Part shown: one piece after another, positions 5,280 to 35,617 of the stretch
Position numbering within the stretch: the first letter of the stretch is position 1
Layout of the letters: the number at the start of each line of letters is the position of its first letter
DNA from: a virus
IMG/VR virus record: IMGVR_UViG_3300028536_000029
Coordinates: 1 to 35,617 of that record
DNA: 35,617 bases
Reading direction: 5' to 3' (one strand)
Program-made: the position numbers and the translations under genes
Notes under the pieces: model-generated
Told to the model about the DNA's origin: nothing
Database searches by the model: none
Seen by the model: the letters and a program-made list of their open reading frames with translations, nothing else

Positions 5280-5734
5280 AGGCGATAGGTGCGTCTCCCC
5301 AATCGCCGTTCAGGCGGCGCCTGCTGAGACGCGTCCCGCGGATTTGAATCAAAACCGCTGTCTGGATTCGGCTCGCTCTGCCGCATCATCTCGTAGAGCA
5401 TTCCGAGCAAACCACCAGGCCTCTCGGCCGGTGCCATCTTTGGCGCGCCTTCTGCTCGTCCCGAAAGAGTTTCGGTGAGAAGCGAGTTGGGGTACCTAGG
5501 CGGATCCACGTCATGCGGCGTTTGCAATGGCGGAGGTACGGGAGCGGGAAAGAGATTTGGGCCTTGTAGAGGCGAAGGCAGTTGGGGCACCCATGACCCC
5601 GGCAGCGGGTTTGGAAGCGTCGGGGGAACCCGGGTGTTGACCCACCAAGGCACTTTGGGTTGAGGTTGAGGTAATGCCCCGTCGATCGCAAAATTGGGGC
5701 GCCTATAGGAATCATCTTTGAATGAGGACGTCAT
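5276..5734 (-). CDS. Proline-rich hypothetical protein with LLGML module
   Basis: Start chosen at ATG 5734 (MTSSFKDDSYRRPNFAIDG) with GGGAAA just upstream; an in-frame ATG at 5761 is possible. The 152-residue product is dominated by proline (PNPLPGSWVPQLPSPLQGPN) and has a short helical module (RPGGLLGMLYEMMRQSEP) like the GGLLGRLL modules of the other modular proteins in the window. The C-terminus is basic (PPERRLGRRTYRL). It overlaps the scaffold-like gene by 4 bp. It may be a stand-alone linker or leader module that has lost or never had an effector domain. Function unknown. Confidence 0.6.
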   Translation of the reverse strand: MTSSFKDDSYRRPNFAIDGALPQPQPKVPWWVNTRVPPTLPNPLPGSWVPQLPSPLQGPNLFPAPVPPPLQTPHDVDPPRYPNSLLTETLSGRAEGAPKMAPAERPGGLLGMLYEMMRQSEPNPDSGFDSNPRDASQQAPPERRLGRRTYRL

Positions 5735-5894
5735 TTGATTTCCCACGCTAGGTTTGGACATGAGGTTGGGACCCGGTCTATTTGCCAGACCAGATTTGGT
5801 TCACAGTTCTTTTTGGAGATACCCATTCCAGGCAGCACGCTCTCGCCGGACAGATATCACCTGACGAGATCAATTTTCTGGGGTGAGACCCGGT

Positions 5895-6857: not shown

Positions 6858-6888
6858 CACTGTTACCCGAAACTTCAGCACACAACCG

Positions 6889-6917
6889 TGTGTAGAACAT
6901 AACAGGAACGCTGTCAA
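6889..6917 (-). promoter_or_regulatory. Sigma70-type promoter with embedded SOS (LexA) box
   Basis: Minus strand: TTGACA (6917-6912), a 17-bp spacer, TACACA (6894-6889). The spacer contains GTTCCTGTTATGTTC (6909-6895), an exact match to the alphaproteobacterial LexA operator GTTC-N7-GTTC. LexA bound here would block RNA polymerase. It sits 32 bp upstream of the ClpP-like start. The same layout recurs at 28480-28508 and 31027-31055. Confidence 0.75.
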
Positions 6918-7143
6918 TCCCGCTTAGGTTGCGGACACAGTCTTGTGGCAGAGGCCATGGGCCATCCCCCTGTGCCCCTTCAGCTTAATTCCTCTCCATC
7001 ATGCGCGGAAATTGTTTCTGCGTTTGGGCGGCAAAACCGCGTGACTGGCCATTGCCGACATTCGGCTGGTGCACCGGCGCTTGCGGAATCAGCGTCTTTC
7101 CCACTTCCGGATGGACGCGTCGCGTTGTTTTGCTATCCGAGCT

Positions 7144-7919
7144 TCACTTGCTGTAGGCATTCACCCACTGCCCATTCGAATAGAGTTCTTTGTTGATGGA
7201 AATCCGAAGAGCGGCCTGCGCGTTCTTGATCTCGACTTGGTACGTATGCGTGAGAAAATTGCTCTCCGATGCGATCGTCAGGTCCTTCTCGGCATTCGCG
7301 AGATAAACCGTAAACGTCGTCGGCACAAAAAAGGCGATCCCGGTGAAATTCAACGGTTTTGATGGATTGTCGAATGGCACCGTTGAATGACTAAGCCCGA
7401 TCTTATCATCCCGATCCTCCGCCGGACGGGCTTTAAACACCCAGTCCTTATCGATTCTTGGAAGATTTCTCGCTTGTACTTCCTTCTCCGCCACTCCGTC
7501 CTGGTCGTATCGTTTGACCGTCAACACATATCGACATGCAGTATTTTCAACGACAAAGTCCGCGACGGTCCTCTCCGGCCCGCTCCCCTCCAAATAGACA
7601 ACCGTTTCGGCGGCGTCGAGAAGCTGAAAATCGGTGTCACCAATTCGAGCCTATTGCCAGCAGAGGACAACAGGCTCGTGAGTGTCGGGCACTTGGTTTC
7701 GAAATCGTCATCGAACTTGACGATGGTCACCCTGTTATTCGTGACCTCCGCCATTTTGTTCATGACGGCGTTTCTTCTAACGACCAGGAGATCTTCTCCG
7801 GGGGCAGGCTGGGGCAGCCAAGACAGCACGTCCGCATCAGTCTCCGCCGAAGCTCGCGTGCCATCGCTGACCAGTGCGATGAACAAAGCGCAGATGACAC
7901 CAAGCGTCTTTTGCGGCAT
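7144..7919 (-). pseudogene. Secreted small protein, one frameshift; putative partner of the toxin-like gene upstream
   Basis: Reading begins at 7919 with a clear signal peptide (MPQKTLGVICALFIALVSDG, cleavage likely after ASA) and a mature part such as VTIVKFDDDFETKCPTLTSL. Near 7625-7640 the sensible sequence passes to another frame (QLLDAAETVVYLEGSGPERT) and continues to 7144 (ending NKELYSNGQWVNAYSK). One lost base explains this. The reconstructed protein would be about 258 aa and exported to the periplasm. It starts 40 bp after the end of the modular pseudogene 7960-8900, the order expected of an effector and its protective partner. Family not recognised. Confidence 0.65.
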
Positions 7920-7959: not shown

Positions 7960-8900
7960 TCAAAAGGACTTTTGTATGACGACTTCCCCAGTCTTTCCGT
8001 CGATATGCGCGATGTCATCGTTGGTCACGGTAACCGTCTTCGCGCGACTATCTTTGTAAGAAAAAATGACAACGGTGCCATTCGTTACATCCATACTTCC
8101 GGCCGGGCTTCCCTTCGGATTATATGTGACATTTCTATCCCTTACCCAGACACATAATCTCTCCCACTAACTGCGTCTTTTTCATTCCTTTGCTGAATGC
8201 CCAGTAGTTCTCCGAAGGCCTGGTTGGCGTTGGTCGGAATTTCGAAATACCCGACCTTGCTTAAGCCAGGCGGTTGACCACCCGCTGTCGACCTTGCTTC
8301 ATTGCCAAGACCGGCCTGGCCGTTGCCGGAGGGACGCGCGTCGGCGGTGAGAGCGACCCGGTCGTTGCCGGTCGCCTCTGCGTCACCTGGCCGGCCAGTG
8401 CTCGCGTGATCAGCGTTTTTCCGACCTCTGGATGAACGATCGCCAGCATCGCATTGTGGTCGCCAAGAATTGGCTGCAGCGCCTCATATCGCGAATTCAG
8501 AACCTGCTGCGGATTTGCGGGATCGGTGGTGCGCTGTCCTGAACTCAAGCCAGTGATGCCGTTGGCAAGCGCCGCAAAGGGATTGCCGACCGGCGTATGG
8601 GCCCAACTTTTGAAGCCGGCGCTCAGGCGGTCGCCGAAATCCGGCGGTTGCTGTGCGGTTTGCGAAACATCCGCTATGCCGAACTGCGGCATCTGGTAAT
8701 CGCCGATCGGAATGTTCTGCGTTTGCCCGTAGTCCGGTAACGTTGGTCGGGGCATTGGCAAAGATATTGGCGTCTGCGGCCCGGTTGGTTGTCCTTGCGC
8801 GTACGCATCTTCGGGAACACTGGTGGTTCTGCCGCTTGATTGTCCGAAGCCTTGACCCGGCTGATATTGATCATGCTGCTGCAACGAAAGCAGGCGACCA
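7960..8900 (-). pseudogene. Type II modular protein (LLGRLLSLQ family) with variable C-terminus, two frameshifts and lost start
   Basis: From about 8900 down the DNA is clearly related to the gene at 9723-10511 (module DQYQPGQGFGQSSG; also VHPEVGKTLITRALAGQ), but the usual MGLFDGYFDPQQF start is replaced by unrelated sequence. The family frame is open to a stop at 8261. Near 8370 the protein-like sequence moves to another frame (LTADARPSGNGQAGLGNEAR, then KVGYFEIPTNANQAFGELLG), and near 8150 to a third (RNVTYNPKGSPAGSMDV; TVTVTNDDIAHIDGKTGEVV), ending at 7960. The reconstructed last 90 residues form a distinct domain, as expected for a swapped C-terminal effector. Both shifts equal single-base losses. 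The domain's activity is unknown. Confidence 0.65.
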
Positions 8901-9722: not shown

Positions 9723-10511
9723 CTATCGGTCGAGGTTGCGCCGGATTTCCTCGTCATCCAGCCCCCATTCTGGCGGTTCCGACGGTGGGAATCGACGGCC
9801 ATTCTTAACACACAAACCCCGTCGATCTTTTGCGCGTTCCTTACATCCGTGTAGAAAATCCGGATGAGCATATTCCTGCTCACGTCCGTAGCATCTGCTC
9901 ATCTCCGCCTCCAGTTGTTCATCGCACTCGTCCCGATCATCTCCACCGCCCCCCTTACCAGAAAATGTTCTCGGGTATAGTTGCAAGACTTTCGCGGCGG
10001 CCTTCCACCAATCCGGAATGGCTGGCACAGGGATCGGCGGCAGGGGTACGGGCTCCGTTGGAGGAAACGGTATTCCTCCCAGACGATAGCCGGCCTGAAC
10101 GACGTTGCCGATGTTATCGGGTTGCCGTCCTGTCTGCGCCTGCGCAATCAGGGTTTGGCCCACTTCCGGATGAACGGTCGCGAGCATCGCGGCGTGGTCG
10201 CCGAGAATTGGCCGCAATGCCTGGTATTGCGAATGCAGATCTTGGGCAGGCGGTTGCGGAGCGGGTGGCGTATGTCCATTGTTCGGCAAATTTGGCCAGG
10301 GCATCGGCTGGAGTACCGGCGCCTGCGGCGCGCTTGGTTGCCCTTGCGCGTAGGCATCTTCGGGAACACCTATGGTTCCGCCGCCGCTGGATTGTCCGAA
10401 GCCTTGACCCGGCTGATATTGATCTTGCGGCTGCAGCGAAAGCAGACGACCAAGCAATCCACCGCTGTGCTGGAATTGCTGCGGGTCAAAGTATCCGTCG
10501 AACAGACCCAT
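9723..10511 (-). CDS. Type II modular protein with Cys-rich C-terminal domain
   Basis: Intact, 262 residues, starting MGLFDGYFDPQQFQHSGGLL. The first 45 residues (LLGRLLSLQPQDQYQPGQG) and a helical module near residues 90-130 (SQYQALRPILGDHAAMLATV) are shared with the genes at 11617-12188 and 7960-8900. A proline-rich linker (PVPLPPIPVPAIPDWWK) leads to a unique C-terminal part of about 90 residues with conserved-looking cysteines and charge (DECDEQLEAEMSRCYGREQE; HGCKERAKDRRGLCVKNGRR), ending in PPEWGLDDEEIRRNLDR. I recall similar Cys-rich ends on rhizobial toxin-like proteins, unverified. The downstream TPR-like gene is its likely partner. There is no signal peptide. Target and activity unknown. 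Confidence 0.7.
   Translation of the reverse strand: MGLFDGYFDPQQFQHSGGLLGRLLSLQPQDQYQPGQGFGQSSGGGTIGVPEDAYAQGQPSAPQAPVLQPMPWPNLPNNGHTPPAPQPPAQDLHSQYQALRPILGDHAAMLATVHPEVGQTLIAQAQTGRQPDNIGNVVQAGYRLGGIPFPPTEPVPLPPIPVPAIPDWWKAAAKVLQLYPRTFSGKGGGGDDRDECDEQLEAEMSRCYGREQEYAHPDFLHGCKERAKDRRGLCVKNGRRFPPSEPPEWGLDDEEIRRNLDR
10136..10314. repeat. 179-bp direct repeat, copy 1 (Type II shared module)
   Basis: Pairs with 11861-12039 at a constant offset of 1725 bp. By eye I count about five mismatches in 179 bp. It encodes the LPNNGHTPPAPQPPAQDLHS to TVHPE segment common to the two Type II genes. Near identity suggests recent duplication or gene conversion and gives a site for recombination between cassettes. 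Confidence 0.8.
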
Positions 10512-11617: not shown

Positions 11618-12188
11618 TATCGCCTGACCGTTATTACCGTTATAACCTGACCATCTGCACCAGTCACGACCTTCACTCCGTTCGTTCCAATGTGCGCGGT
11701 TTCGCCGGGATTGTTACCAGGGCCCCAGCGTCCTTCCACCAGTCCGGAATGGCTGGCATCGGCGGCGGGGGCATCGGCCCTATCTGAGGAAATGGTATTC
11801 CACCCAGGCCATGACCGGCCGAAATTGCGCTGGCGGCGTTATCGGGTCGCTGGCTCGCCAGCGCCTGCGCAATCAGGGTTTGGCCCATCTCCGGATGAAC
11901 GGTCGCGAGCATCGCGGCGTGGTCGCCGAGGATCGGCCGCAATGCCTGGTATTGCGAATGCAGATCTTGGGCAGGCGGTTGCGGAGCGGGTGGTGTATGT
12001 CCATTGTTCGGCAAATTTGGCCAGGGCATCGGCTGGAGTGCTGGCGCCGGCGGGGCGGACGATGTCTGATCAAGGCCTGCGCTCGGCTGATACTGCCCTT
12101 GCTGCGGTTGCAGCGAGAGCAGGCGGCCAAGCAGGCCGCCACTGTCCGCAAATTGCTGCGGATCGAAATAGCCGTCGAACAAGCCCAT
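11617..12188 (-). pseudogene. Type II modular protein, C-terminal tail out of frame
   Basis: ATG 12188 has GAGG seven bases upstream and opens MGLFDGYFDPQQFADSGGLL, nearly the same as the gene at 10511. The linker ends AIPDWWKDAG and the frame then gives a poor tail to 11673. One base over, from about 11730, there is a protein-like tail GRWGPGNNPGETAHIGTNGV then KVVTGADGQVITVITVRR, ending at TAA 11617-11619 that overlaps the next gene's ATG. A single lost base near the WWK codons explains it. The effector end would be short, about 45 aa. Its activity is not recognised. Confidence 0.65.
11861..12039. repeat. 179-bp direct repeat, copy 2
   Basis: Partner of 10136-10314. It lies in the shared part of the second Type II gene. 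See that entry for the alignment. Confidence 0.8.
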
Positions 12189-12206
12189 CAATCGGCCTCG
12201 TCATGA

Positions 12207-14017: not shown

Positions 14018-15058
14018 CTAATTTTCATTTGGCGCGACCGGCCGACCGAGGTACCGCTTCGCCGCAAGCGCGGTTGGTAGAACCCGGCGAAGCACTGGAT
14101 AGGCTTTCTGCACCGTCTGCCCCGCTTTGCTGTCTGGTAACGCTTCTTCCAGTGCTTGGACTGCCACACCAGGGACAACGGCATGCTTCGCCACAGTGCC
14201 GGGAAGTTCGCGTAGCGCCGCACCCGCTGTCTGCGCGCCGCGAACAACACCCAATGCCGCTCCACCTAAGACCATCGGCACCATTTCGCCGATTGTTTCC
14301 GCGAAGCGTCCAGCTCTGCTTTTGGGTTGATAAAGTTCGCCGACGTGATTTTCCAACCAATGCCGGAGTTCATCGGCCCCCCACCGTTTCCAGTAATCCG
14401 GCTCCCCTGCGGGAAGTTGCGGACGTCCGTCCTGACTTCTGAATAGGTTAGATACGAAGTTGTTCGGGAGGAAACCGAAGCCTGTCAGCGCATCTCCGGG
14501 CAGCCCTGCCGCGTTGACTGCACCATTGACGAAGCCGATGCCCGCCGATTTCGCAATGTCGACAGGATCAGGCGGAGGGGCTTCGGCACGGGTAAGGTTT
14601 CTGACACCGCGCGCCAGCCTGGCCGCCGCCGCCTCTCTTGCCTGTTGCGCCTGATCTGTCTCGTGTAGTGCTTGCGCCTGCGGCGCCGAAGCCTCCGCCC
14701 GCGGCGCAAGAAAGCCGGGCATCGGCAACGAAGCGCTGTTCGGAGCCCGTGAAAGTTGCCTGAAGTTCGGATCCGGCGGCACGGACGTCGCCTGTCCGCT
14801 ATTTCGCGCAAGTGTCTGATACCGGCCTTGTTCCGCTTGCAGCGCAAGCAACCTGCCGAGCAAGCCACCTTGCGGACTGCCATAGCTGTCCGAACTATAT
14901 TCGGGCGCGGCGTTTGTTGTCGAACGGAAATCGGGTCCCTGCTGCTGCAGGCTCTGCTCCTGCATCGCCCGGCGCAACATGCCCGGCAGGCCGCCGCCCT
15001 CGCCGCCGTAGGTTTCCGGATCGTACTCGTACGCGTCGCGAAAATTCATGCCGCCCAT
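14018..15058 (-). CDS. Type I modular protein (MNFRDAYEYDPETYG leader) with hydrophobic C-terminal region
   Basis: 346 residues from ATG 15058 (MGGMNFRDAYEYDPETYGGE). Residues 1-100 hold two short helical modules (LPGMLRRAMQEQ; GGLLGRLLALQAEQGRYQ) and FRQLSR. They are nearly identical to those of the gene at 15997-16851. The unique second half (SAGIGFVNGAVNAAGLPGDA; FAETIGEMVPMVLGGAALGV; VAKHAVVPGVAVQALEEALP) is Gly/Ala-rich with semi-hydrophobic helices, like the pre-toxin regions of large polymorphic toxins, but the protein stops (GRPVAPNEN) with no enzyme domain after it. It may be truncated or act on membranes itself. The facing plus-strand membrane gene is the candidate partner. Confidence 0.7.
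   Translation of the reverse strand: MGGMNFRDAYEYDPETYGGEGGGLPGMLRRAMQEQSLQQQGPDFRSTTNAAPEYSSDSYGSPQGGLLGRLLALQAEQGRYQTLARNSGQATSVPPDPNFRQLSRAPNSASLPMPGFLAPRAEASAPQAQALHETDQAQQAREAAAARLARGVRNLTRAEAPPPDPVDIAKSAGIGFVNGAVNAAGLPGDALTGFGFLPNNFVSNLFRSQDGRPQLPAGEPDYWKRWGADELRHWLENHVGELYQPKSRAGRFAETIGEMVPMVLGGAALGVVRGAQTAGAALRELPGTVAKHAVVPGVAVQALEEALPDSKAGQTVQKAYPVLRRVLPTALAAKRYLGRPVAPNEN
14820..15058. repeat. Direct repeat encoding the Type I leader, copy 1
   Basis: Highly similar to 16615-16851 over the first 80 codons, with stretches of near identity around the start codon. It marks duplication of the leader while the downstream coding parts differ. Confidence 0.75.
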
Positions 15059-15564
15059 CGGTTCAATTCCTTGTCTATGATGTGCTTTCTTCAACGCCGT
15101 CGTGGATATGTGGCCGCGTCATTTGCGGCCGACCCCGGGTCAAGGTTGGAACGAATTGTTGTTGCCGCTACGGCACGAGAAAGATCAGTAGACTATCCGT
15201 CGAGAAAGAAACCGGACCGGTTTCTTCGGAGCAGCCGCCAATTCCTGCGGCGGAGCCGCATACACCTGCGCATCGTCGGAAGTAGACGCGGACTCGGGCG
15301 TCCGGTTGAGTTTGGTACTACTGATGTCCCCGTTGGGCCACGGCCACTACGCCTCTTGAGCGGGCGCGGCAACGGTCGTTCGGCCGCCCATTGAGGCACT
15401 TCCGGCGCACTGCGGTATGGGCCAGCCGCCCGACGATCGTTTCGAATCATTGGCGTTGAACGTAACACTCTTGTGATTGCAGCTCGCCCTTGCCAACGCA
15501 TAGGCTGCATACACCATTCTTAGCAGACGGAAGTTATCCGGCATCGATGAGCGCAAGTCAGACC
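15059..15564. other. Region between duplicated cassettes
   Basis: Holds one possible short minus-strand gene with an in-frame stop (15185-15391) and, from about 15441, the conserved upstream region of the plus-strand membrane gene. Nothing else convincing was seen. Confidence 0.5.
15185..15391 (-). pseudogene. Possible small gene interrupted by TAG
   Basis: From ATG 15391 the frame reads MGGRTTVAAPAQEA, then TAG (15347-15349), then a protein-like segment WPWPNGDISSTKLNRTPESA and ELAAAPKKPVRFLSRRIVY to TGA 15185. Other genes here use TAG as a normal stop, so recoding is unlikely. It may be a recently broken small gene or chance; no family is recognised. Confidence 0.3.
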
Positions 15565-15996: not shown

Positions 15997-16851
15997 TCAT
16001 CGGCGCGGCCCCCAGATCGGCGGTGGAAACGGCCATTGCGGCATCGGCTCGCCGCTAACGATTCCCGGCGGTCCGCCTGTCGGCTGCTCTTGAGGAGCAT
16101 CCGATTTCGGACTCAAAGGATTGATACCGGCCACAACGGTGCTGGCAGCGCGGTTTCTCAAAAAGTCCAAAAACAAGCGCCCAAGCCCGCTGGTCGTGCG
16201 GGGAGCAAGAGGGCCTTGAAGAGATGCGGCCTCAAATGCAGCGATCGGGCCGAGTTCGCGCCCCAGGTTTTGTCGAAACGCCTCCTCCTCGGTCGAAGGC
16301 GCGCTGGTCGCGTCGATCGAGCTTTGGACCGCGAGTGCCTCTGCATTTTGGGCCGCCTTCAGTATCGCAATCAGTCCATGCGGGTCGGGATGATTCCAAT
16401 ATGCTTCGAGTCGATCGGAGAGTGAGCGCTCTGGCCGGGCGGCGAGATTGGAGCCCGATGGAGAATAGGCCGGGTTCGATTGACCGTCGGGTAGCGTTGC
16501 AGGATCGATCGCGCTTTGCGGCGGATTAGCGACGGGGACCCGAGAAAGTTGCCTGAAGTTCGTGTCCTGCGGCACCGGCGACGCTTGTCCGCTATTTCCC
16601 GCAGCCGGCTGATACCGGCTCTGTTCCGCTTGCAGCGCAAGTAGCCTGCCAAGCAAGCCACCTTGCGGGCTGCCATAGCTGTTCAGATTGTATTCGGGCG
16701 CCGCGTTTGGTGTCGAACCGAAATCAACCCCTTGCTGCTGCGGGTTCTGCTCTTGCATCGTCCGGCGCAGCATGCCTAACAGGCCGTCGCCCTCGCCCCC
16801 GTAGGTTTCCGGATCATACTCGTACGCGTCGCGAAAATTCATACCACCCAT
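15997..16851 (-). CDS. Type I modular protein, second copy
   Basis: 284 residues. The ATG at 16851 shares one base with the stop of the GNAT-like gene (TGATG). The leader (MGGMNFRDAYEYDPETYGGE) and modules LLGMLRRTMQEQ and GGLLGRLLALQAEQSRYQ match the copy at 14018. The middle (LSDRLEAYWNHPDPHGLIAI; SSIDATSAPSTEEEAFRQNL; RELGPIAAFEAASLQGPLAP) differs, and the end is proline-rich (GIVSGEPMPQWPFPPPIWGP). No enzyme motif is visible at the C-terminus. The coupling to the GNAT gene suggests it is made along with virion proteins. A decayed third leader lies at 17353-17567. Confidence 0.7.
   Translation of the reverse strand: MGGMNFRDAYEYDPETYGGEGDGLLGMLRRTMQEQNPQQQGVDFGSTPNAAPEYNLNSYGSPQGGLLGRLLALQAEQSRYQPAAGNSGQASPVPQDTNFRQLSRVPVANPPQSAIDPATLPDGQSNPAYSPSGSNLAARPERSLSDRLEAYWNHPDPHGLIAILKAAQNAEALAVQSSIDATSAPSTEEEAFRQNLGRELGPIAAFEAASLQGPLAPRTTSGLGRLFLDFLRNRAASTVVAGINPLSPKSDAPQEQPTGGPPGIVSGEPMPQWPFPPPIWGPRR
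16615..16851. repeat. Direct repeat encoding the Type I leader, copy 2
   Basis: Partner of 14820-15058; see that entry. Confidence 0.75.
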
Positions 16852-17273
16852 CAGCTCAATTCCTTGTCCATGATGATGTACTTTTCCTGATAGCCGTCCA
16901 GCACCCGCAGCCAACCCTTGCGGCCATAGATGCGGATGCACGTACAGTCTTCGCGCTTCGCATAAGCCTCGATCTGCTTGATCAACGGTAGCCAGCGCTT
17001 GATGCCGCTGCCGCCGCAGACCGTGATGATGCAGACCTTGCCGATCTCCGAATTGATCAGGATGGTCGCTGCAGCGGCTTCGACCGTTCGTCCGTTCCAG
17101 GTGATCCACAGCAGGCTGCGGCCGGCAAGAATGTCGGCTTCGATATCAGCGAACGCATTCAGCTTGGTGCGGCAGCAGGCCGCTTTCAGCAGCGGGCTAA
17201 CGTAAGGCCAGATCTCGTGAACCCGCTGGGGATCGACACAAACGAGATCAACCGGGGACGAATGCACAGACAT
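16851..17273 (-). CDS. GNAT-fold phage protein
   Basis: 140 residues from ATG 17273 (MSVHSSPVDLVCVDPQRVHE). The order of elements fits a small GNAT fold: an N-terminal helix pair, strands SLLWITWN and VEAAAATILI, a CoA-loop-like turn VCGGSGIKRWLPLIKQIEAY, and a last strand region CTCIRIYGRKGWLRVLDGYQ. Such GNAT-like proteins recur in late operons of short-tailed phages, where their substrate is unknown. The usual Q/R-x-x-G-x-G/A loop appears only as CGGSGI, so acetyl-CoA binding may be weak. It is coupled to the Type I gene downstream. Confidence 0.7.
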   Translation of the reverse strand: MSVHSSPVDLVCVDPQRVHEIWPYVSPLLKAACCRTKLNAFADIEADILAGRSLLWITWNGRTVEAAAATILINSEIGKVCIITVCGGSGIKRWLPLIKQIEAYAKREDCTCIRIYGRKGWLRVLDGYQEKYIIMDKELS

Positions 17274-25344: not shown

Positions 25345-26581
25345 TCAGCGCTGATACCTCCGGGTTAACCGATGGACCGGCGGCCGATCTCCAAAGCGAT
25401 CGGCAAACGAGCTCTCGCTATCGTCCGGTACGAATGGCACCGGCGGCGCGCCGGTGTCGAATACAGAAGCTGGCGGTTTTCCCGCAGCTTGTTCATTCTG
25501 CTGTCGAATATGATCCACGATCCGGCCAAGCAATCCTTGCGGCGGTGCAGGCGCTGGTGGCGGCAGAGATACAGAGCCGCTTGGCAAAGAAGGACTCCAT
25601 TTTATGAAACGGTCGCCGAACGAAGCCGATCGATCTGGAGATTGAATGTCAATCGGGTGCAACCAAGGGGTCGGCGTTGTTCCCGCATCGAATACAGATG
25701 CTGGCGAACCGTTGCCATACACCCCAGTCAAATATCGCACAGGGTTCGGGCTGGTGACGCCAGATACCCCACCGCTCTGCGGCGGCGGCGCCGGCCGCGT
25801 TGGATTCGACGGATCAATGCCAGCGAACGAAAATCTCCAATCGCCAACGCCGAGACCGTTACCGTCGCCGATCTGGCCGGCAGATTTTTTCACCCGCGAT
25901 CCGACACCGAAGCGATCGATGAGCGATGGCTCCCCATTCGCTACACCCGCGTCAGCGAAGCCTTGACGATGTTGTCGTAGTTTTGCGCAGACAGGCCGTA
26001 AGGCCCACTTGTATCTATCTTGGACTTGATATCAAGCCTCGGCGCCGTCGGGTTGAGAATGCGACCGTTGACCCAGTTCGGAATTCCTCCACTCCTCTCC
26101 GACCATTCGACCGGCAAGCCCGCAAATCGAGTTACCTGCCCGAGATGATAAGATGCGCTGCCGACAAAAGCTGGAACGACCGAGCCTTTTGGACTTCCCC
26201 ATTGCGGATGGCGTTGCAGATCTTGCGGGCCACCTTGGAAGAAGGCGCCCGTCATCTGTCCCAACGCTTGATGTAGCCCGGCCGTACCTGTTTTGTCTCC
26301 TGGATAGGCGGATTGATCGTATCGGCGATCTTGGCCGCGAACTCTCTCGCCTGTTGTTCGGTATAGTTCGCTGGGACGATTAGGTAGTTGTTCGGGTTGG
26401 CGATCTTGCCTGTCGCCTTGTATCTGTCCGAGGGGTCAGCATAGATGTAAGTCTGCTGGCAGCCGCCCGGCTTCGAGTCCGCCACTGGTTTGCCATCGCG
26501 AGTGAGAAATTTGGCGGGGACGTAGCCAGCGAATCTGCCGTTCTTGTCCAGTGAGCCAACGTAAAATAATTGCTCTGACAT
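25345..26581 (-). pseudogene. Modular protein in three frames: N-terminal globular effector-like domain plus proline-rich repeats
   Basis: ATG 26581 opens MSEQLFYVGSLDKNGRFAGY, then GKPVADSKPGGCQQTYIYAD and RPGYIKRWDR to a stop at 26252. One base over, the sequence continues naturally (MTGAFFQGGPQDLQRHPQWG; QVTRFAGLPVEWSERSGGIP; SGPYGLSAQNYDNIVKASLT) to a stop at 25941. One base over again it continues (GFADAGVANGEPSLIDRFGV; SFAGIDPSNPTRPAPPP; PPASVFDTGAPPVPFVPDD) to 25345. Both joints equal a one-base loss. The layout, globular part first and AGIDP-NPT / ASVFD repeats last, matches the broken gene at 1742-3162. The first joint could alternatively be a natural ATGA gene boundary. Activity is unknown. 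Confidence 0.6.
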
Positions 26582-26718: not shown

Positions 26719-27297
26719 TCAGCCGCCTTGCATTTCTCCAAGCGCAATAGCGACTATGTAGAAATGGTCGAAAAGATGAACCGCACGGTCGTCCTGATCG
26801 ACCAGCACATTCCGATCGAGAAAATGCCGCATTGCATCTTTCCATTCCTCGGTTCTCTGAGATTTCGATAGAGCAAGCTCCCCGGTTGTATCGTAAAGCA
26901 CTGCAAAATTAAGTCCCCGTCGCCAGTTGCCCTCGCAGCGACCGACGGTCTGCTTGCTGCCGTTTTCGACGAATTCAACCAGTTCGCAATTACTGGCCAG
27001 ATATTCATCAATCGGCGAAACATGGATTCGAAATCCCTGTCTTTCGATCCAGTTAAGAGGCTCCGTAATTCCAAAGATTGGAAGGCAGATCACAATCCAG
27101 GTTGCGCCAAAAATCGCGACCTCTTTCCATCGACTCCGGAGAAAGGCACTGAAGGCAAGGAGAAACATCGGAAGCCAGCATATGAGACCTATCCATGCGA
27201 TCCATTCTGAAGAATCAGGAAGAATATGGGTCAGGAATGTCGAACCGTACTGTCCGAAGAGGACGACAACGATCAGAAGATATTTCCAACGGGTCAT
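26719..27297 (-). CDS. Membrane protein, paralogue of 30206-30847, putative immunity-type
   Basis: 192 residues. Three N-terminal membrane helices (YLLIVVVLFGQYGSTFLTHI; WIGLICWLPMFLLAFSAFLR; EVAIFGATWIVICLPIFGIT) are followed by a soluble domain (LNWIERQGFRIHVSPIDEYL; NGSKQTVGRCEG; FAVLYDTTGELALSKSQRTE). The same order, with shared motifs (QGFR-H, QTVG-C, YDT--), is found in the gene at 30206. It lies 138 bp before the broken modular gene at 25345-26581. Function unknown; a membrane-located protective protein is a guess from context. Confidence 0.65.
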   Translation of the reverse strand: MTRWKYLLIVVVLFGQYGSTFLTHILPDSSEWIAWIGLICWLPMFLLAFSAFLRSRWKEVAIFGATWIVICLPIFGITEPLNWIERQGFRIHVSPIDEYLASNCELVEFVENGSKQTVGRCEGNWRRGLNFAVLYDTTGELALSKSQRTEEWKDAMRHFLDRNVLVDQDDRAVHLFDHFYIVAIALGEMQGG

Positions 27298-29469: not shown

Positions 29470-29529
29470 TGCTTTTCCCACCCGAGAACCAGAGAAACCG
29501 CCAAGGCATGAGTGCCATCAGAATCCTGA

Positions 29530-29559
29530 AATATACAATCGGACTATTTTCATGCTCAA
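29530..29559 (-). promoter_or_regulatory. Promoter-like element upstream of the gene at 29029
   Basis: Minus strand TTGAGC (29559-29554), 18-bp spacer, TATATT (29535-29530), followed by TCAGG. It corresponds closely to the element at 28933-28963. It also encodes a possible 11-codon leader (MKIVRLYISGF). Confidence 0.5.
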
Positions 29560-29563
29560 TTCT

Positions 29564-29623
29564 GGGGACTTTTCGTGCACCTTCCCCTGCCTATCGACGA
29601 GATTTTCAGGATATTTTGTGCAG
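29564..29623 (-). repeat. Dispersed intergenic repeat with hairpin, copy B
   Basis: Second copy of the element at 3794-3855, with the 20-nt identical block at 29604-29623 and a changed but still paired stem. It is directly upstream of the promoter-like element at 29530-29559. Confidence 0.6.
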
Positions 29624-29727
29624 AAGGCAACGGGTACACGCGATTCAGCGGTCGGCGCAGGCGCAGCCCGCTAATCAGCAAGCAATCCAGTGATCCGAAC
29701 GGTAACATGAACCTCTGTAGGTTCGCG

Positions 29728-29910
29728 TCAGCCGCCCTTCTTCACGATCTGATATCCGGCGGCCTCGAGCTCCATGATCACGACCTTGGCGACGTGCGCG
29801 CTTTCCTCGACCTGAATCCAGTGGTCATGCGACGCCGGATCGTCTTCCCTCGGATATTTGACAAAGGCGGAATGGATAGCGGCGCTGATAATATCTTTTG
29901 GATCGGTCAT
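29728..29910 (-). CDS. Small phage protein, 60 aa
   Basis: ATG 29910 (MTDPKDIISAAIHSAFVKYP) has AGGGG upstream at good spacing. The rest (EESAHVAKVVIMELEAAGYQ then IVKKGG) is a compact helical protein. I recall similar proteins in rhizobial prophages, unverified. Surrounded by accessory genes; role unknown. Confidence 0.65.
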   Translation of the reverse strand: MTDPKDIISAAIHSAFVKYPREDDPASHDHWIQVEESAHVAKVVIMELEAAGYQIVKKGG

Positions 29911-30205
29911 CAGTTTCCCCTGCGTTCGGTCGAATCTAGCATGGTTTGCAACGGCAATGCGATGGCTCGCTTTCATCTCGTGCGAGCGGAAGCAGCTTTG
30001 TCACGTAGGCATGGTTCGTCGTGGCGCTCTTCGGCGCGCACAATCATGCCCTCGTTCGGGAATTGGCGACGCGATGCGTCACGAAGGGAAGGCTAGCGAT
30101 GCTGACACATCGGGAAACACTTCAATGCTTTGGTCGACCCGGGATTCGTTATGGTCGGATGGCGCGGGAGCGAAAAGGCAATACTGAAAATCGATGGTGC
30201 GTTCC
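29911..30205. other. Intergenic region
   Basis: No convincing gene on either strand. A minus-strand segment ends SIEVFPDVSASLAFPS, superficially like a DUF4279 ending, but nothing upstream supports it. Confidence 0.4.
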
Positions 30206-30847
30206 CTAGCACCCTGGGCCGCGGCCATAAGTGACCACCCGATAGAAGTTACCATAGAGATGCAGAGCGCCATCCTGTGAGCCGAGTGAGCCGTTGGATG
30301 CTTCCGAGATCGCACGCTGCCATTTCGGAGTTCTCTGCCAAGGCCCTAAAACGAATTGGTCTGCAGTATCGTACGCAACGTAATCGCAAAACCAGCCGTG
30401 GTCGGCTTGCTCGCAGAGTCCGACCGTTTGCTGACCGCCCTTTTCATCGAGAAAATCGACGCGACGACACCTGGAGAGGTAATTTCTATCCAGCAGAGTG
30501 TGGACACGGAAGCCTTGGGCGCTCAGCCAGTGGACTGGCGCCTTGACGCCAAGATTAAAGAGGAACAAGAGCATCCACGTGATGATGAAGACCGAGACCC
30601 ACTTCCAACGAAGCCTGAACAGAGCTTCCAGCGAAAAGAGGAACAACGGAATCAGCATCCAGTCACTGACCCACTGGAGCCAACCGAAGATAGGTTCAAA
30701 AATGAAATATGAGAACTCGGAGCCGTAGAAACCCAACACGGCCACGGCTATCACAATGCATCTCAGCCAGCTCACCGCATTGTTAGAAACAAGTTGTTTG
30801 ATAACAGCAGTGACCCGATACATCGGCCAGCTAACAACAGTCCTCAT
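30206..30847 (-). CDS. Membrane protein, paralogue of 26719-27297, downstream of SOS promoter
   Basis: 213 residues from ATG 30847; the ATG at MYRVTAV is an alternative. Three membrane helices (CIVIAVAVLGFYGSEFSYFI; WMLIPLFLFSLEALFRLRWK; VFIITWMLLFLFNLGV) are followed by a soluble domain (LSAQGFRVHTLLDRNYLSRC; GGQQTVGLCEQAD; VAYDTADQFVLGPWQRTPKW). It is clearly related to the gene at 26719. The SOS-type promoter is about 180 bp upstream. It interrupts the order of phage structural genes, so it is probably a late addition. Function unknown. Confidence 0.65.
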   Translation of the reverse strand: MRTVVSWPMYRVTAVIKQLVSNNAVSWLRCIVIAVAVLGFYGSEFSYFIFEPIFGWLQWVSDWMLIPLFLFSLEALFRLRWKWVSVFIITWMLLFLFNLGVKAPVHWLSAQGFRVHTLLDRNYLSRCRRVDFLDEKGGQQTVGLCEQADHGWFCDYVAYDTADQFVLGPWQRTPKWQRAISEASNGSLGSQDGALHLYGNFYRVVTYGRGPGC

Positions 30848-31026
30848 GGATCAGCATCCGTTAGCAAAACAAGCTGACGCATTGGCACGGCGCTACGTCA
30901 GTCATGGCAACCTCATCAGCTTCCTGCTTGGCGTTGTTGTCGCGAACCGACATTGTCTCGTGGGTTGTGAACGTCCAGGCCAACGCCGAACGAGACGTCG
31001 ACCAGTTTCACCTGATCGAAGCAGCT

Positions 31027-31055
31027 TGATAGAACACAACAAGAACAAAATCAAT
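31027..31055 (-). promoter_or_regulatory. Promoter with SOS (LexA) box
   Basis: Minus strand TTGATT (31055-31050), 17-bp spacer, TATCAA (31032-31027). The spacer holds GTTCTTGTTGTGTTC (31047-31033), a perfect GTTC-N7-GTTC operator. The next gene downstream is the membrane protein at 30847. Confidence 0.7.
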
Positions 31056-31089
31056 CGTGCTTCTTGAAGTTAGCTGCCCAGATTCCGGA

Positions 31090-31389
31090 TCACAGAATTC
31101 CAAACCGCCGCTTCCGCTCCGCGACCTGAACCAGGTCCCTCAGCTCGGCCTGCGCCAGCTTGCCGTTGGAGACGGTCGCGCTGAGATGGTTGCGCACCTT
31201 GGCGACGATGTTGATCGCAAGAAACAGCTTCTCCCGTCCAGCCACATCGTCGATTGTCGTGACCCGCCAAGCGGAGGTGTAATTCTCTTCGAGCATCGCA
31301 AAGGCTTCGATCAGCAATTCGTTGTCGAGCAACTCCTGCGCGCGCTGGGCTTTGGCGACCGCCTGGTCGAGCCTGTTTTCATCAGACAT
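31090..31389 (-). CDS. Phage protein between portal and capsid region, 99 aa
   Basis: ATG 31389 (MSDENRLDQAVAKAQRAQEL) overlaps the preceding gene by 8 bp. The helical product (NELLIEAFAMLEENYTSAWR; AINIVAKVRNHLSATVSNGK; LAQAELRDLVQVAERKRRFG) resembles small proteins found just after portal genes in alphaproteobacterial short-tailed prophages. The role is probably head assembly. Its location suggests that portal and terminase lie to the right of this window. Confidence 0.7.
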   Translation of the reverse strand: MSDENRLDQAVAKAQRAQELLDNELLIEAFAMLEENYTSAWRVTTIDDVAGREKLFLAINIVAKVRNHLSATVSNGKLAQAELRDLVQVAERKRRFGIL

Positions 31390-31795
31390 CGGGGTTGCCC
31401 TTTGCGGTGTTCGTCTGCCGCACCTTTGCGTCATGGTTTGCCGCGGCGGCCGCCATGCCAAGTTCCGCCCCAGCGAAATTGATTTCATGCCGGGCGTGCG
31501 CGCGTTGCATCTTCAGTGTTTCGATTGCGGCCTTCAGATGCGCGTTGAGCAGCGCCATCTTGGCATCGAGCTCAGTCTTCATCCTGGCCAGCTCGATTTC
31601 GGCCTGGACCTTGACCTGCTGGTGGATCGCCTCGGCTTGCGCCTTCTGCTGATTGGCCTGCGCCCTCGCCTGCGGTGCCAACACCTTTGGATCGAGCGGC
31701 GGCGTTGGCGGCGGATGCAACAACTGGCCGGTCCGCGGATTGATCGCGGTGGTGGTGGCGCCGGCAGCCTCGCCGGACCTAGTTTTGTCACTCAT
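31382..31795 (-). CDS. Coiled-coil phage protein, 137 aa
   Basis: MSDKTRSGEAAGATTTAINP, then a proline-rich segment (HPPPTPPLDPKVLAPQARAQ) and a long charged coiled coil (QVKVQAEIELARMKTELDAK; HLKAAIETLKMQRAHARHEI). It looks like the Gln-rich coiled tail often found at portal C-termini, here as a separate gene. Coupled to the 99-aa gene by an 8-bp overlap. Probable virion or assembly protein. Confidence 0.7.
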   Translation of the reverse strand: MSDKTRSGEAAGATTTAINPRTGQLLHPPPTPPLDPKVLAPQARAQANQQKAQAEAIHQQVKVQAEIELARMKTELDAKMALLNAHLKAAIETLKMQRAHARHEINFAGAELGMAAAAANHDAKVRQTNTAKGNPDV

Positions 31796-32014
31796 AGGTA
31801 TCCCCGTTCGATTTTGTGAATCTTCGCATCATGGCGGTGCGCCGTCGCTGCCATCATCGGAGCCCTGTCCAAGCAACGTCGCGGGCACAACGGATAATCC
31901 AGAGAGGCCGGCAAGCAAATAGGGATCGAATTTTCGAGCCCCGGGCCGAAGGCGGCATTCGGACTACGAAGTTGATTTGCGTCGCGAAGGTGTGTCAAGC
32001 TAGGAGCTTCCAAC

Positions 32015-32224
32015 ATGGTGAGACGGATGGCGGAAAACGGCAGCGAATGGGAGGAGCCGCCCTACACTGAGGAGGAGGAAGAGGAATTCTACTGGCGTAC
32101 CCAGTATGGTGTGGTCCAGGTCGCGCACGGCGGCCGAACCATCGTTCCTCAGCCACCACGGCCGCCTAAGAACGATCCCCAGAACGATCCCCCAGAATCG
32201 CAAACCCCAACGCCGGCAAAATAG
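32015..32224 (+). CDS. Small acidic plus-strand protein, 69 aa
   Basis: ATG 32015 with TAGGAG eight bases upstream. The product (MVRRMAENGSEWEEPPYTEE, then EEFYWRTQYGVVQVAHGG and PPRPPKNDPQNDPPES) is acidic then proline-rich. The codon pattern looks real. Its 3' end overlaps the end of the minus-strand fragment at 32166 by 59 bp. I recall similar short proteins in Bradyrhizobium accessory regions, unverified. Function unknown. Confidence 0.5.
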   Translation: MVRRMAENGSEWEEPPYTEEEEEEFYWRTQYGVVQVAHGGRTIVPQPPRPPKNDPQNDPPESQTPTPAK

Positions 32225-32829
32225 CGCCGGCCTTCATCGCCGCTTCGAGCCGGTCGACCCAACCCTTGCCCTCGCCGATGATCTTGCGGGCGTTCTGGAT
32301 GTCCTCGCGGGTGGCGCCCCATTGGCGCGAATATTCCTGATCCCGTTCGAACCGCGCCAGCGCCGCCTTCGGGATATCGGCATTGTCGTTCATGGCGGCG
32401 CGCAGCTCCGGCGTCACATTGATATAGGACAGCATCTCGCGCGTCGCCGCGCCGGATCCCTCCCCTTGCTGCCACGCCGGCACATAGTCGATGAAGCCGC
32501 TATCGACTGTCCCGCGCTGTGGCCGGACGCTGGCGACTGACTTGATGTCGGCCGTGAGTTCGCCCTTGCGAAGCGCGGGGCTGATATCGTCAGGGGGTGG
32601 GCCGAACCGCGTCATGGTAACGCCCTGGCCGCTGTCGACCACGTCCGGCAAACCCGCCGCCTCGCCGCGCCGTTGCAGCACCAGCAGTTGCTCGGGCGTT
32701 GCCTTCCCTGGCATCGGCGCGAACAATGAGTTGCCTGGTCCAAACCAGAGCTTGTGCCAGGCGGAGGCGTTCTGCGCGTCGACATAGCCGCGCGCCGCCT
32801 CCGATGCATTGAGGATGTTGCCGCCCGCG
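32166..32829 (-). pseudogene. Orphan C-terminal module without its N-terminus
   Basis: Good protein sequence begins abruptly right after the stop of the DUF6794 gene: GGNILNASEAARGYVDAQNA, then LWFGPGNSLFAPMPGKATPE, GVTMTRFGPPPDDISPALRK, EMLSYINVTPELRAAMNDNA and RLEAAMKAGAILPALGFAIL. It has no plausible own ribosome site; an ATG at 32861 lies inside the DUF6794 gene and adds unrelated residues. This is what remains when a new C-terminal module plus its partner is inserted and displaces the old module downstream. The activity of the module is unknown. Confidence 0.6.
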
Positions 32830-33237
32830 CTATTTGTGCAGCGATTGCCATACGGCCTCAATAATCTTCATCGAGGCATCTTCGGGATGACATCGGTAGC
32901 CACATGCCGAAAGTATCAATTTGTCATTGCCTTGCCAAAGGCCGTACCGATTGCGTATCCCCGTTCCGAGTTCGAAATGCAGAGAAATTGTGTCCTCCTT
33001 TTTCATAAACATAATTTTGAGCTTTTCGAACCGAGAAATCCGCGGCAGGAGATCGCGTACAGTTTCTTCCACTGTTACGGGCCAATTTTCTGGACCAAGC
33101 AGTTGTGGGCCCGTTTCGGTTCCTACCGCCGTAATCCGCATAAATACCAAGAAGACCGCTATAAGAATCAAAAAGCTACTGAGTGCTAATTTCACCCAGC
33201 GGCTCCTTGAAAGTCCGTCATTTGCTAGGCCGAGCAT
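32830..33237 (-). CDS. DUF6794 membrane-anchored protein, putative immunity partner
   Basis: 135 residues. An N-terminal membrane helix (WVKLALSSFLILIAVFLVFM, residues 14-33) is followed by a domain with the DUF6794 pattern: PVTVEETVRDLLPRIS, EDTISLHFELGTGIRNRYGL, WQGND, and HPEDASMKIIEAVWQSL. It starts 28 bp after the end of the ART/DUF4329 gene. Position, size and membrane anchor fit an immunity protein against that effector, but DUF6794 proteins also occur alone, so this is inference. Start 33237 is the best available ATG. Confidence 0.75.
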   Translation of the reverse strand: MLGLANDGLSRSRWVKLALSSFLILIAVFLVFMRITAVGTETGPQLLGPENWPVTVEETVRDLLPRISRFEKLKIMFMKKEDTISLHFELGTGIRNRYGLWQGNDKLILSACGYRCHPEDASMKIIEAVWQSLHK

Positions 33238-33265
33238 TCGAAAAATTCCTCACACTCTAGCGATT

Positions 33266-34621
33266 TTACCTGGGACCAAATGACCCCTGGGAATTTAGCG
33301 GCCGTGCGGGAGAATTACTAGAGGCGCCATTCGTGTTGCCAAGTACAGAGACGTCACCCTGAGATAGTTGATTTGGAATGGGCGAGTATTTGTAGATAAT
33401 ACCACTGGGCGCGCCTAGGTAAGAAGGTGCTCCCTCAGAGTCACTATCTCGTTTGTCCTTCAGCGAATAATTCTCGTTAAGCGCGGGGTCAGCCCCACGC
33501 GTGTGCGTGTGATACGCCCCGGCATTAACGCCCAACGAGTGGAGCAGCGGCGTTAGCACGCTATTGCCCGGTGAAGACGAATATGCCGTGCCCTCTGATG
33601 GCGGCGTGTATGAATAATCACCAAGGCCAAGCCATCTATGATAGACGCGCCCAGCGTATTCCAGTCCATAACGCTGCGAAGTCGGGTTGATATCCTGCAA
33701 TGCAGCAATGGCCGCTGCATCGGCTGTTGGATAGCTATCTCCTGCCGACGCTAAACGGAGCGAGTTGGCGTCTCGCACGATAATGATATTCTGTTTCCTG
33801 ATGCCACCCGGTGAGGTATAGTTCTTGATCATCACGGCATCATGCCCAGCATCAAAGGCGCTCCGTAATGCATCAACCACCTGACCATGAGTCTCCGATC
33901 CATCCAGCGTCAACGACGTCGGACGCTCCGCGCGATGCAGAAGCTTGTAAACCTGTGGATTGGTTTGCTCACTACCCCGTGCTGCCGCAAACTCATTCGC
34001 AACCTCGGGATCAAGCGCCAAGGAAACTCCAGGTGATTCCATGCCCGCCGCATTTGTGGAAACAGCTCTCGGAGAGCTGAACTCCGTTCCCGATCCATGG
34101 TAGAGTGGCATATCGGTTCGGAAGCCCATTTGCGTGGCGCGAGCCATGCGAGAGGCCGTATCCATCGGTAGCTTGAGGCCCACCCGTAATTCGTTGGCCG
34201 CCGCTGGCACAGTGCCGGCGCCGCCCATCATTGTCATCGCTGTGTCGACCGCTGGGCCGATGGATTGTGGCGCGTAGCCATCCTCTCCCAAATGCCCTAC
34301 GTCCGCAGCGCTCGCCTCAAGAGCGCGCTGTGGAAGTGTCAGGAGCTGCGTCATCATTCCATATGCAACTCTGCCAGCGATGTCGGCCGTCTTGTTGCCG
34401 ATCGCAGTTCCGGCGGAGAATTGTCCGCCGTCGCCAACGGCCGGCGCGCCGACATCGGATAGATCAGCCCCAGTCTCGAGCCGTTGGTGCTGGCTTTCCA
34501 GTTGCGTCCGTGCCTGTTCGATCAAGCCATCTGCGCTGAACGGATCATGGTCAACGGGGATAAGTGAAGCATCTCCGAAATCCGGTTGATGGTCCACAGG
34601 CACCAGAGAAAAATCAGGCAT
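33266..34621 (-). CDS. Type III modular protein: shared leader, ADP-ribosyltransferase-like domain, DUF4329 domain
   Basis: 451 residues from ATG 34621 (a TTG at 34630 is less likely). Residues 1-30 contain a duplicated motif (FSLVPVDHQPDF; ASLIPVDHDPF). Residues 80-135 (LLTLPQRALEASAADVGHLG; GYAPQSIGPAVDTAMTM) are shared with the gene at 34644. Residues about 170-290 (MPLYHGSGTEFSSP; GVSLALDPEVANEFAAARGS; IRKQNIIIVRDANSLRLAS) match the ART-like fold of phage polyvalent proteins. Residues about 300-425 (INPTSQRYGLEYAGRVYHRW; AGAYHTHTRGADPALNENYS; PSYLGAPSGIIYKYSP) match DUF4329, whose HTH--S--D pattern suggests a JAB-like metal site. DUF4329 is known at the ends of Rhs toxins. The intact frame contrasts with the broken cassettes nearby. 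Confidence 0.75.
   Translation of the reverse strand: MPDFSLVPVDHQPDFGDASLIPVDHDPFSADGLIEQARTQLESQHQRLETGADLSDVGAPAVGDGGQFSAGTAIGNKTADIAGRVAYGMMTQLLTLPQRALEASAADVGHLGEDGYAPQSIGPAVDTAMTMMGGAGTVPAAANELRVGLKLPMDTASRMARATQMGFRTDMPLYHGSGTEFSSPRAVSTNAAGMESPGVSLALDPEVANEFAAARGSEQTNPQVYKLLHRAERPTSLTLDGSETHGQVVDALRSAFDAGHDAVMIKNYTSPGGIRKQNIIIVRDANSLRLASAGDSYPTADAAAIAALQDINPTSQRYGLEYAGRVYHRWLGLGDYSYTPPSEGTAYSSSPGNSVLTPLLHSLGVNAGAYHTHTRGADPALNENYSLKDKRDSDSEGAPSYLGAPSGIIYKYSPIPNQLSQGDVSVLGNTNGASSNSPARPLNSQGSFGPR
34226..34350. repeat. Direct repeat in Type III leader, copy 1
   Basis: Nearly identical to 35493-35617 at a constant offset of 1267 bp; the last 80 bp are almost free of mismatches. It encodes LPQRALEASAADVGHLGEDG. 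The second copy runs off the right edge. Confidence 0.8.
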
Positions 34622-34643
34622 GCTGAACAACCATCAACTCGAT

Positions 34644-35617
34644 TTATCGGTCATCGCTGGACTCCCCGTTCGTTGCGCCGATGCCAACCGGTACCGCAAC
34701 GCCGTTGAACTGAATGACTTCGTTCAGGCGTGGATTATTATTGACGAACTTCCGGATGGTGGCCGCGGTCTTGGGCGCGACCGTCTTGAGATAATTGGGA
34801 TCTGCCATATAGGCGCGGAGTGCTTCCGCGATGTATTCGCGCGAAACGTCCTTGCCGCGGTAGCCGGCATTCTCCGGCGTGTAGAAGCGTCCTCTGGCGG
34901 CCTCGCCCGTCTGGGGGCCATACCGTCCTGTTCCGGGCGTCGTCGCGCGGTTGGGGTTGTTCAGCGTATTGTAGACCCGCCGCAGCTCGTCCATGAGCGG
35001 CCCGGCGTCGATGTCGCCGGCAAGATCGTCGACGGCATGCCCGAATTCGTGAGCTGAAACCTTATCTTTGGCAGCTTGATTTAAAGCCGAGAGAACGGTG
35101 ATCCCACGCTCCGGCCCATCCGGTCCTCGTGTGACTCCGTAAGCCCCAATCGAACCTCGAGGAAGTGCGCTCGCCGGCCCGCTCTGAATTGGCGAGCCAA
35201 GCGTTGCCGTTGCTGCGGCGTTAAGTTCCGCTGGCGTGAGGGCTTCGTCCATTCTGCCCAGCGTTCTTCGTCCGACAACGAATTCAGCCGCGAGATTTCT
35301 TCCTTCGATATCTTTGGAAAGATTTCCTGCGACATCAGATGGGGCTCCGGAAGGATAGTCCGCCTCGAAGGGGCGAGGCGATTTTGCCGGTGGATTATAG
35401 ATCGAAGCCGATCGTGATGCCAGCGAATCTGAGCCACCACGCAAAGGACTCGCCTCTGCTGGAACGACCGCCGCACGACCTGCCCCCACACCTCCCATCG
35501 TCATCGCCGTCTCTACCGCTGGGCCTATGGATTGCGGCGTGTAGCCATCCTCTCCCAAATGCCCTACGTCCGCAGCGCTCGCCTCAAGAGCGCGCTGTGG
35601 AAGTGTCAGGAGCTGCG
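34644..35617 (-). CDS. Type III modular protein with zinc metallopeptidase domain, 5' end outside window
   Basis: The frame is open to the right edge, where it encodes the same LPQRALEASAADVGHLGEDG as its neighbour. After a variable Pro/Ser linker comes a metallopeptidase domain: KVSAHEFGHAVDDLAGDIDA with HExxH (HEFGH, 35037-35051), then REYIAEALRAYMADPNYLKT, where the Glu of IAEAL (about 34824-34826) is the likely third zinc ligand. It closes with AATIRKFVNNNPRLNEVIQF. Such gluzincin-like domains occur in polymorphic toxins and phage polyvalent proteins. The stop is 22 bp before the ART/DUF4329 gene. No separate partner gene follows it. Confidence 0.75.
   Translation of the reverse strand, partial: QLLTLPQRALEASAADVGHLGEDGYTPQSIGPAVETAMTMGGVGAGRAAVVPAEASPLRGGSDSLASRSASIYNPPAKSPRPFEADYPSGAPSDVAGNLSKDIEGRNLAAEFVVGRRTLGRMDEALTPAELNAAATATLGSPIQSGPASALPRGSIGAYGVTRGPDGPERGITVLSALNQAAKDKVSAHEFGHAVDDLAGDIDAGPLMDELRRVYNTLNNPNRATTPGTGRYGPQTGEAARGRFYTPENAGYRGKDVSREYIAEALRAYMADPNYLKTVAPKTAATIRKFVNNNPRLNEVIQFNGVAVPVGIGATNGESSDDR
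35493..35617. repeat. Direct repeat in Type III leader, copy 2 (cut by window edge)
   Basis: Partner of 34226-34350; see that entry. The repeat probably extends further right. Confidence 0.8.

Follow-up and report, generated by a model that had tools for sequence, protein, structure and literature searches.

The MuF polymorphic toxins of temperate phages are encoded directly after the portal gene and combine a conserved N-terminus with a variable toxin end, and a small open reading frame (ORF) downstream is thought to provide immunity (PMC5576092). The internal proteins of phage T4, which include anti-defence cargo, have in common only a short N-terminal targeting peptide; this capsid targeting peptide is sufficient for encapsidation and is removed by the prohead protease (PMC3012670). 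The polyvalent proteins of phages and conjugative elements, which unite 2 to 15 conflict domains in a single polypeptide, are predicted to be packaged and injected (PMC5512222). Finally, orphan cdiA-CT/cdiI and rhs-CT genes form arrays of displaced toxin/immunity modules, and every module begins with a piece homologous to the delivery gene upstream (PMC4927057). Here we analyse a viral DNA of 35,617 bp, the complete IMG/VR record IMGVR_UViG_3300028536_000029 (hereafter, the window). Near its right end, on the minus strand, two neighbouring genes that we call A and B encode proteins with the same N-terminal leader and different enzymes behind it. Our results make it likely that A and B belong to a family of phage or prophage cargo proteins, most of them polymorphic toxins, which carry an N-terminal address tag and are encoded behind a portal with a partner tag. 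Related loci are cited below by our L numbers. The two genes, which lie head to tail with 13 bp between them, comprise the following parts:

34644-35617 and beyond, minus strand: gene B, its 5' end cut by the contig end; leader remnant followed by an apparent zincin-type peptidase with an HEFGH motif
35493-35617, minus strand: leader remnant of gene B, its last 77 bp the same as in gene A
35037-35051, minus strand: HEFGH active-site motif of gene B, read from the sequence; H, E and H invariant in 14 relatives
33266-34630, minus strand: gene A, 454 residues, MPDF start with its ATG at 34621; leader, ART-like part and DUF4329
34226-34621, minus strand: leader of gene A, about 132 residues, with 87% protein identity to the leader of gene B
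34577-34606, minus strand: tag box 1, LVPVDHQPDF, from sequence and alignment
34538-34564, minus strand: tag box 2, LIPVDHDPF, from sequence, alignment and motif scan
33731-34108, minus strand: ART-like part of gene A, a weak match (ART-PolyVal E 0.02 for the isolated part)
33380-33721, minus strand: DUF4329 of gene A (Pfam PF14220, E 6.2e-14)

The core of the leader, (L)[VI]PVD[HY]DPF, belongs to a motif that we call tag1, [LF][VI]PVD[HY]DP[FWD], usually present as two boxes. A scan for PVDHDPF in the DNA of viral contigs, blind to position and giving lower bounds, placed at least 84 matches in the first 60 residues of a protein and at least 32 in the last 30, and elsewhere at least 11 internally (at least three of them in ORFs over-extended upstream), at least 3 near an open end and at least 5 outside any ORF. 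The motif is terminal on more than 100 diverse phage or prophage proteins. When 101 tagged proteins were scanned with Pfam, 22 families were found, including ART-PolyVal (12), WHH (7), colicin-DNase (6), HYD1 ART (2), NucA/NucB (2), CHAP (2), LPD23, InPase and SLT; the MuF family is absent from these 22, and one tagged protein matches the PHROG 'minor head protein'. Synonymous sites in the tags are near saturation (proportion of synonymous differences, pS, 0.55-0.77), and the ratio of non-synonymous to synonymous differences (pN/pS) is 0.14-0.23, with pN biased low by the use of the motif itself to collect the sequences. The leader is also more than a recombination substrate, its core being a conserved terminal peptide under constraint at the protein level. 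In genomes, the two-box leader was found almost only in Bradyrhizobium, with the addition of two Methylobacterium-group genomes and one metagenome-assembled genome labelled Nitrospirales; it is present in 12 of 147 genomes of the genus Bradyrhizobium, 4 of which have two or three copies. Among INPHARED phages, tags were found at useful scores in the cyanophage Pam5 only, and no relative of gene A or gene B was found.

The genes upstream of tagged genes end in a motif of their own, tag2 (DGxxYVPDPxRPGKYL). Its longer form, GARxAxDGxxYVPDPxRPGKYLxV, closes nearly all of 61 upstream genes, the exceptions being a portal that is truncated and two small ORFs that were probably mistaken for the true upstream gene. 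Most of the 61 are portals, with matches to PHROG portal families up to E 1e-151, and some encode virion proteins of another kind, the tail lysozyme of Pam5 among them. All 91 matches to tag2 among the 10,608 ORFs of the fetched loci lie at most 20 residues from the C-terminus, and all 44 matches of a separate position-blind scan are C-terminal too. In about 42 of these 44 cases the next gene begins with tag1, here PVD[HY]DP followed by F, W, Y or D (38 were counted automatically at the N-terminus; the others, recognised by eye, are variants such as PVDHDPW). Portals that lack tag2, in L216, PaP4 and a Rhizobium phage, are not adjoined by a tag1 gene. In loci of the Bradyrhizobium type, the first tagged gene begins before the portal gene has ended, inside its final codons (typical overlap 8 bp). 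On the DNA, tag2 and tag1 are separated by 23 to 137 bp, with 30 distinct distances. We also considered a conserved element, of DNA or RNA, spanning the gene junction, and rejected it because of the synonymous freedom and the variable spacing. Neither motif has a convincing match in the PDB, and neither was found in the literature that we searched.

The body of the portal matches PDB entry 7sxk and its relatives (E 2e-68), whereas the last 117 residues of its tail have no match in the PDB. We take 7sxk to be the portal of phage PaP3, with a C-terminal barrel. The portal is a single ORF in PaP4 and in a Rhizobium phage. It is split in the Bradyrhizobium-type phages of L003 (875-1420 and 3053-4747), L145, L150, L153, L009, L140 and L216 into an N part of about 182 residues and a C part of about 555; the halves are adjacent in L009, L140 and L216, and in the others stand 0.4-4.7 kb apart with cargo-like genes between them. 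The C part in Bradyrhizobium phage ppBeUSDA76-2 (L216, OP596614.1, 19585-21246) is an intact ORF that is unannotated in the record.

Behind the leader, enzymes change from gene to gene. The preliminary description of this DNA held that 125-bp direct repeats encode one leader in front of different enzymes, and alignment bears this out: positions 34226-34350 and 35493-35617 agree at 115 of 125 positions (a repeat search of the window returned 122 nt at 94% identity for the same pair), and both copies read on the minus strand, in one common frame, as ...QLLTLPQRALEASAADVGHLGEDGY[A/T]PQSIGPAV[D/E]TAMTM. Similarity between A and B ends about 10 codons past this peptide and does not run on through the C-terminal parts, the remainders having no significant similarity. 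Comparing the divergence of leaders and ends gives the same picture, since A and B are 87% identical in their leader proteins and unrelated beyond them, while gene B and its Bradyrhizobium jicamae relative (L145) have 63% identity in their leaders and 68% in their enzymes. The parts of A and B also occur in other combinations. In L008, DUF4329 is joined straight to the leader, without the ART part (about 75% identity). L013 has the ART part and no DUF4329 behind the leader, L232 has the ART part with no leader at all, and the zincin stands behind quite different N-termini in L220-L230. More than 10 loci have adjacent genes with a common leader that differ downstream of it. These comparisons between relatives give good support to the shuffling of enzymes behind a shared leader. 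The swapping proposed in the preliminary description is therefore retained, on the strength of the relatives; the claim of direct evidence is not, because all that the window shows is a product, and an assembly artefact may underlie its final 77 bp.

The idea that recombination takes place within a repeated leader proved too narrow, as many relatives repeat the 3' end of the portal gene too. Incomplete copies of this 3' end are frequent in front of second and third tagged genes; one example is L145 9289-10011, which corresponds to portal residues 324-564. Among 15 fragments tested, the portal of a foreign phage was closer in 6 (L150, L153, L157 twice, L014 and L077), and the phage's own portal was closest in L145, L151, L013 and others. 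Because another phage's portal is the closer one for these 6, the comparison points to the import from elsewhere of cassettes made of portal tail, leader, toxin and immunity gene, and the exchanged unit is larger than leader and enzyme. B and A have no piece of portal between them, so a tandem duplication of the leader fits this pair better.

The pair itself was confirmed by extending the sequence to the right. Contig L003 is 99.82% identical to window positions 29525-35617 over 6,093 bp and extends 5 kb further. It contains a complete gene B (4734-5987, 417 residues) and a complete gene A (6001-7365, 99-100% identical to the copy in the window), and their full leaders are 90.2% identical over 408 bp. 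Because L003 holds both genes complete and in tandem, we regard the A-B tandem as real. The end of the window is another matter. The exact part of the repeat is 77 bp long (34274-34350, equal to 35541-35617), is the only repeated 77-mer of the window, and is far beyond what chance would give in 35.6 kb. Six of the 11 differences between the window and L003 fall in the last 125 bp of the window, and its final 77 bp have the bases of gene A at the positions where gene B of L003 differs. Because the contig stops precisely at the end of the exact 77-mer, we read the exactness of these 77 bp as either local gene conversion or a k-mer artefact of the assembly graph. The literal 125-bp repeat was accordingly dropped as a proof of recombination, since its exact part coincides with the contig end.

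The peptidase assigned to gene B in the preliminary description withstood scrutiny. Residues H283, E284, H287, E354 and E358 are invariant in 14 relatives, and the AlphaFold model is confident over most of residues 170-320 and 340-400; the leader is modelled with low confidence and is probably disordered. A search by fold returned zincin peptidases as the nearest structures, with a best E of about 0.01; no match reaches E 0.001, which is insufficient for naming a family. Given its HExxH motif, the glutamate downstream and the fold, the product of gene B looks like a zincin-type metallopeptidase. Two tagged copies of the zincin are fused in one ORF of 796 residues in L006 (2128-4515), where a tag-like box is repeated in mid-protein. 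For gene A, an ART-like and DUF4329 pair had been proposed, of which DUF4329 is clear and the ART part weak, its score being below the gathering score. The homologues of this part in L013 and L232 score similarly against ART-PolyVal, and the AlphaFold model of gene A is of too poor a quality for use. The label ART-like is plausible from these profile matches, and not proven.

Some tagged genes are followed by genes of immunity type. SUKH proteins are encoded by 7 of the 45 genes downstream of tagged genes (E 1e-23) and ComJ by 4 (E 5e-22), with matched pairs of WHH and SUKH in L150 and of NucA/NucB and ComJ in L013. Another of the 45 encodes an Acb2/Tad1 hairpin domain, of the anti-CBASS type, and adjoins a tagged cargo gene. 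Two further features of the window belong to the surroundings of gene A:

32830-33237, minus strand: immediately after gene A, a DUF6794 protein of 135 residues with a membrane segment at its N-terminus (Pfam PF20594; E 8e-14 for the L003 counterpart)
31382-31795, minus strand: free-standing copy of the C-terminal tail of the portal, at the distal edge of the cargo stretch, with 59% protein identity to L003 portal residues 437-534

By its position, the DUF6794 protein is a candidate immunity protein for gene A. Adjoining the portal tail copy, positions 31090-31488 resemble the gene that directly follows the portal in phage ppBeUSDA76-2.

How does this locus compare with the systems described above? 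Like MuF toxins, tagged genes are borne by phages or prophages, stand directly after the portal gene (for most of the 61 upstream genes), and associate a variable toxin end with a small immunity gene, as in the two matched pairs and, potentially, in gene A with its DUF6794 neighbour. They differ in having a short linear tag at the N-terminus instead of a folded MuF domain, in the partner tag borne by the portal, in the copies of the portal tail carried by cassettes, and in the hosts found, which are Bradyrhizobium and other alphaproteobacteria, not Firmicutes. A short N-terminal peptide common to unrelated proteins, with anti-defence proteins among the cargo, recalls the internal proteins of T4, but the motif is unrelated, often consists of two boxes, also occurs at C-termini, and is coupled to a motif on a portal of the LUZ24/PaP3 type. 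The repertoire overlaps with that of polyvalent proteins in ART-PolyVal, zincin peptidases, InPase and LPD23. Here, however, most of the enzymes sit on short proteins of their own that have one tag in common (gene A has DUF4329 and the weak ART match, gene B one enzyme domain), and bacteriocin-type nucleases with immunity genes are included. The fragments of portal tail before second and third tagged genes resemble the arrays of orphan cdiA-CT and rhs-CT modules, although the B-A pair itself has none; here a phage portal takes the place of the delivery gene, and its fragment is part not of the toxin gene but of another gene in front of it.

Short linear motifs at protein termini, a near-invariable adjacency of tag1 and tag2 genes, otherwise unrelated enzymes and the exchange of cassettes are thus features of these loci, from which we infer loading into the virion by the tag. 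In the proposed mechanism, tag1 would recruit the protein into the procapsid, and the simplest route would be docking on the tag2 tails at the C-terminal barrel of the portal, inside the head. The enzyme would leave with the DNA and act in the infected cell. The address would be kept and the weapon changed by recombination that runs across the portal tail and the leader, and A and B would be a recent tandem duplication of the leader, carrying the peptidase and the ART-like/DUF4329 enzyme. Somewhat short of an even chance, in our estimate, is the more specific idea of a lock-and-key fit between tag1 and tag2 at the tip of the portal barrel, where tag2 tails would hold proteins with LIPVDHDPF boxes. 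If true, the pair would be a general plug-in address system that brings diverse enzymes into the heads of short-tailed phages, and toxins would be exchanged between phages by recombination through the portal tail and the leader. Several points weigh against cargo addressed by a tag. Incorporation into virions and binding are predictions from sequence, and portal docking is not required by the data, as tag1 is also found at C-termini and behind genes other than portals. The low bias of pN mentioned above applies, the ART assignment of gene A is weak, and gene B is without an evident immunity partner. With no portal piece between its two genes, the B-A pair is left unexplained by the cassette model. 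Finally, some tagged ORFs are short or disrupted, so that prophage arrays may in part be in decay.

The tag might instead serve another route, if these proteins were prophage toxins freed at lysis, or exported in some other way, for competition between lysogens and non-lysogens. The SUKH and ComJ neighbours and the classical bacteriocin and polymorphic toxin domains would suit such toxins, but the particle is favoured by the location of the genes right after the portal, with stop and start codons that overlap, by the occurrence of tag2 on portals and on a tail lysozyme, and by the presence of peptidoglycan hydrolases and polyvalent-type domains among tagged proteins, and we find release of this kind rather unlikely. 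It is less probable again that the leader is a mere patch of DNA homology, a substrate or site for recombination whose peptide has no function. Repeats of portal tail and leader do flank the cassettes, and fragments do come from the portals of other phages. Yet the codons of the tag are free at synonymous sites while the residues are kept, the motif also lies at extreme C-termini, the spacing between tag2 and tag1 is not fixed, and distant phages such as Pam5 share the peptide and not the DNA.

Two simpler accounts concern the A-B pair. Two strain versions of one gene could have been chained by the assembler into a false tandem, for which speak the end of the contig at an exact repeat of 77 bp, a typical assembler word length, and the presence there of the bases of gene A in place of those of gene B in L003. 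Such an error could account for the last 77 bp only, and L003, which may come from a related sample or assembler and so be less than fully independent, has both genes in the same order, with distinct leaders, and runs on into the portal gene; we therefore give an artefact very little credence. An entire gene could also have been duplicated and the C-terminal halves of the copies have drifted apart without swapping; this would agree with two head-to-tail genes that share 408 bp at 90%, and L006 has a real tandem duplication of tagged zincins. The remainders of A and B are nevertheless unrelated, and each enzyme part has relatives behind other N-termini or behind none, which makes plain duplication the most improbable of these alternatives. 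The reading of A and B as tagged cargo remains the one that we favour.

Other repeated elements are present in the window. A second family with a repeated leader, GGLLGRLL[AS]LQ..., occupies positions 8261-8884, 9723-10511, 11673-12191, 14018-15094 and 15997-17109 on the minus strand, with 300-nt repeats that are 86% identical and ends that diverge. In L009 (8391-8738), a PVDHDPF leader is followed by a PPAKDLHSQ stretch typical of this family, apparently a chimera of the two families of leaders. A third shared element, ASVFDxGxxPxPFVP with AGVDPxNP repeats, is found at 1742-2722 and 25345-25893 (minus strand) and in L003 (2115-3038), where it lies between the two portal halves; one protein has three copies of it. 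Two membrane proteins, each about 200 residues long (26719-27297 and 30206-30847, minus strand) look like paralogues by eye and are candidate immunity genes; neither has a match in Pfam.

Overall, the larger finding is the pair of terminal tags, which looks like an unreported address label for swappable weapons. To our knowledge, little is known of the rules by which proteins are chosen for the heads of short-tailed phages. With a peptide pair from which cargo can be predicted by sequence alone, this choice would become testable. Such a pair would also turn 'hypothetical' genes of prophages into a class that can be annotated, that of injected effectors and of toxins with their immunity genes, and it suggests that phages may re-arm themselves by swapping the cargo while keeping its address.
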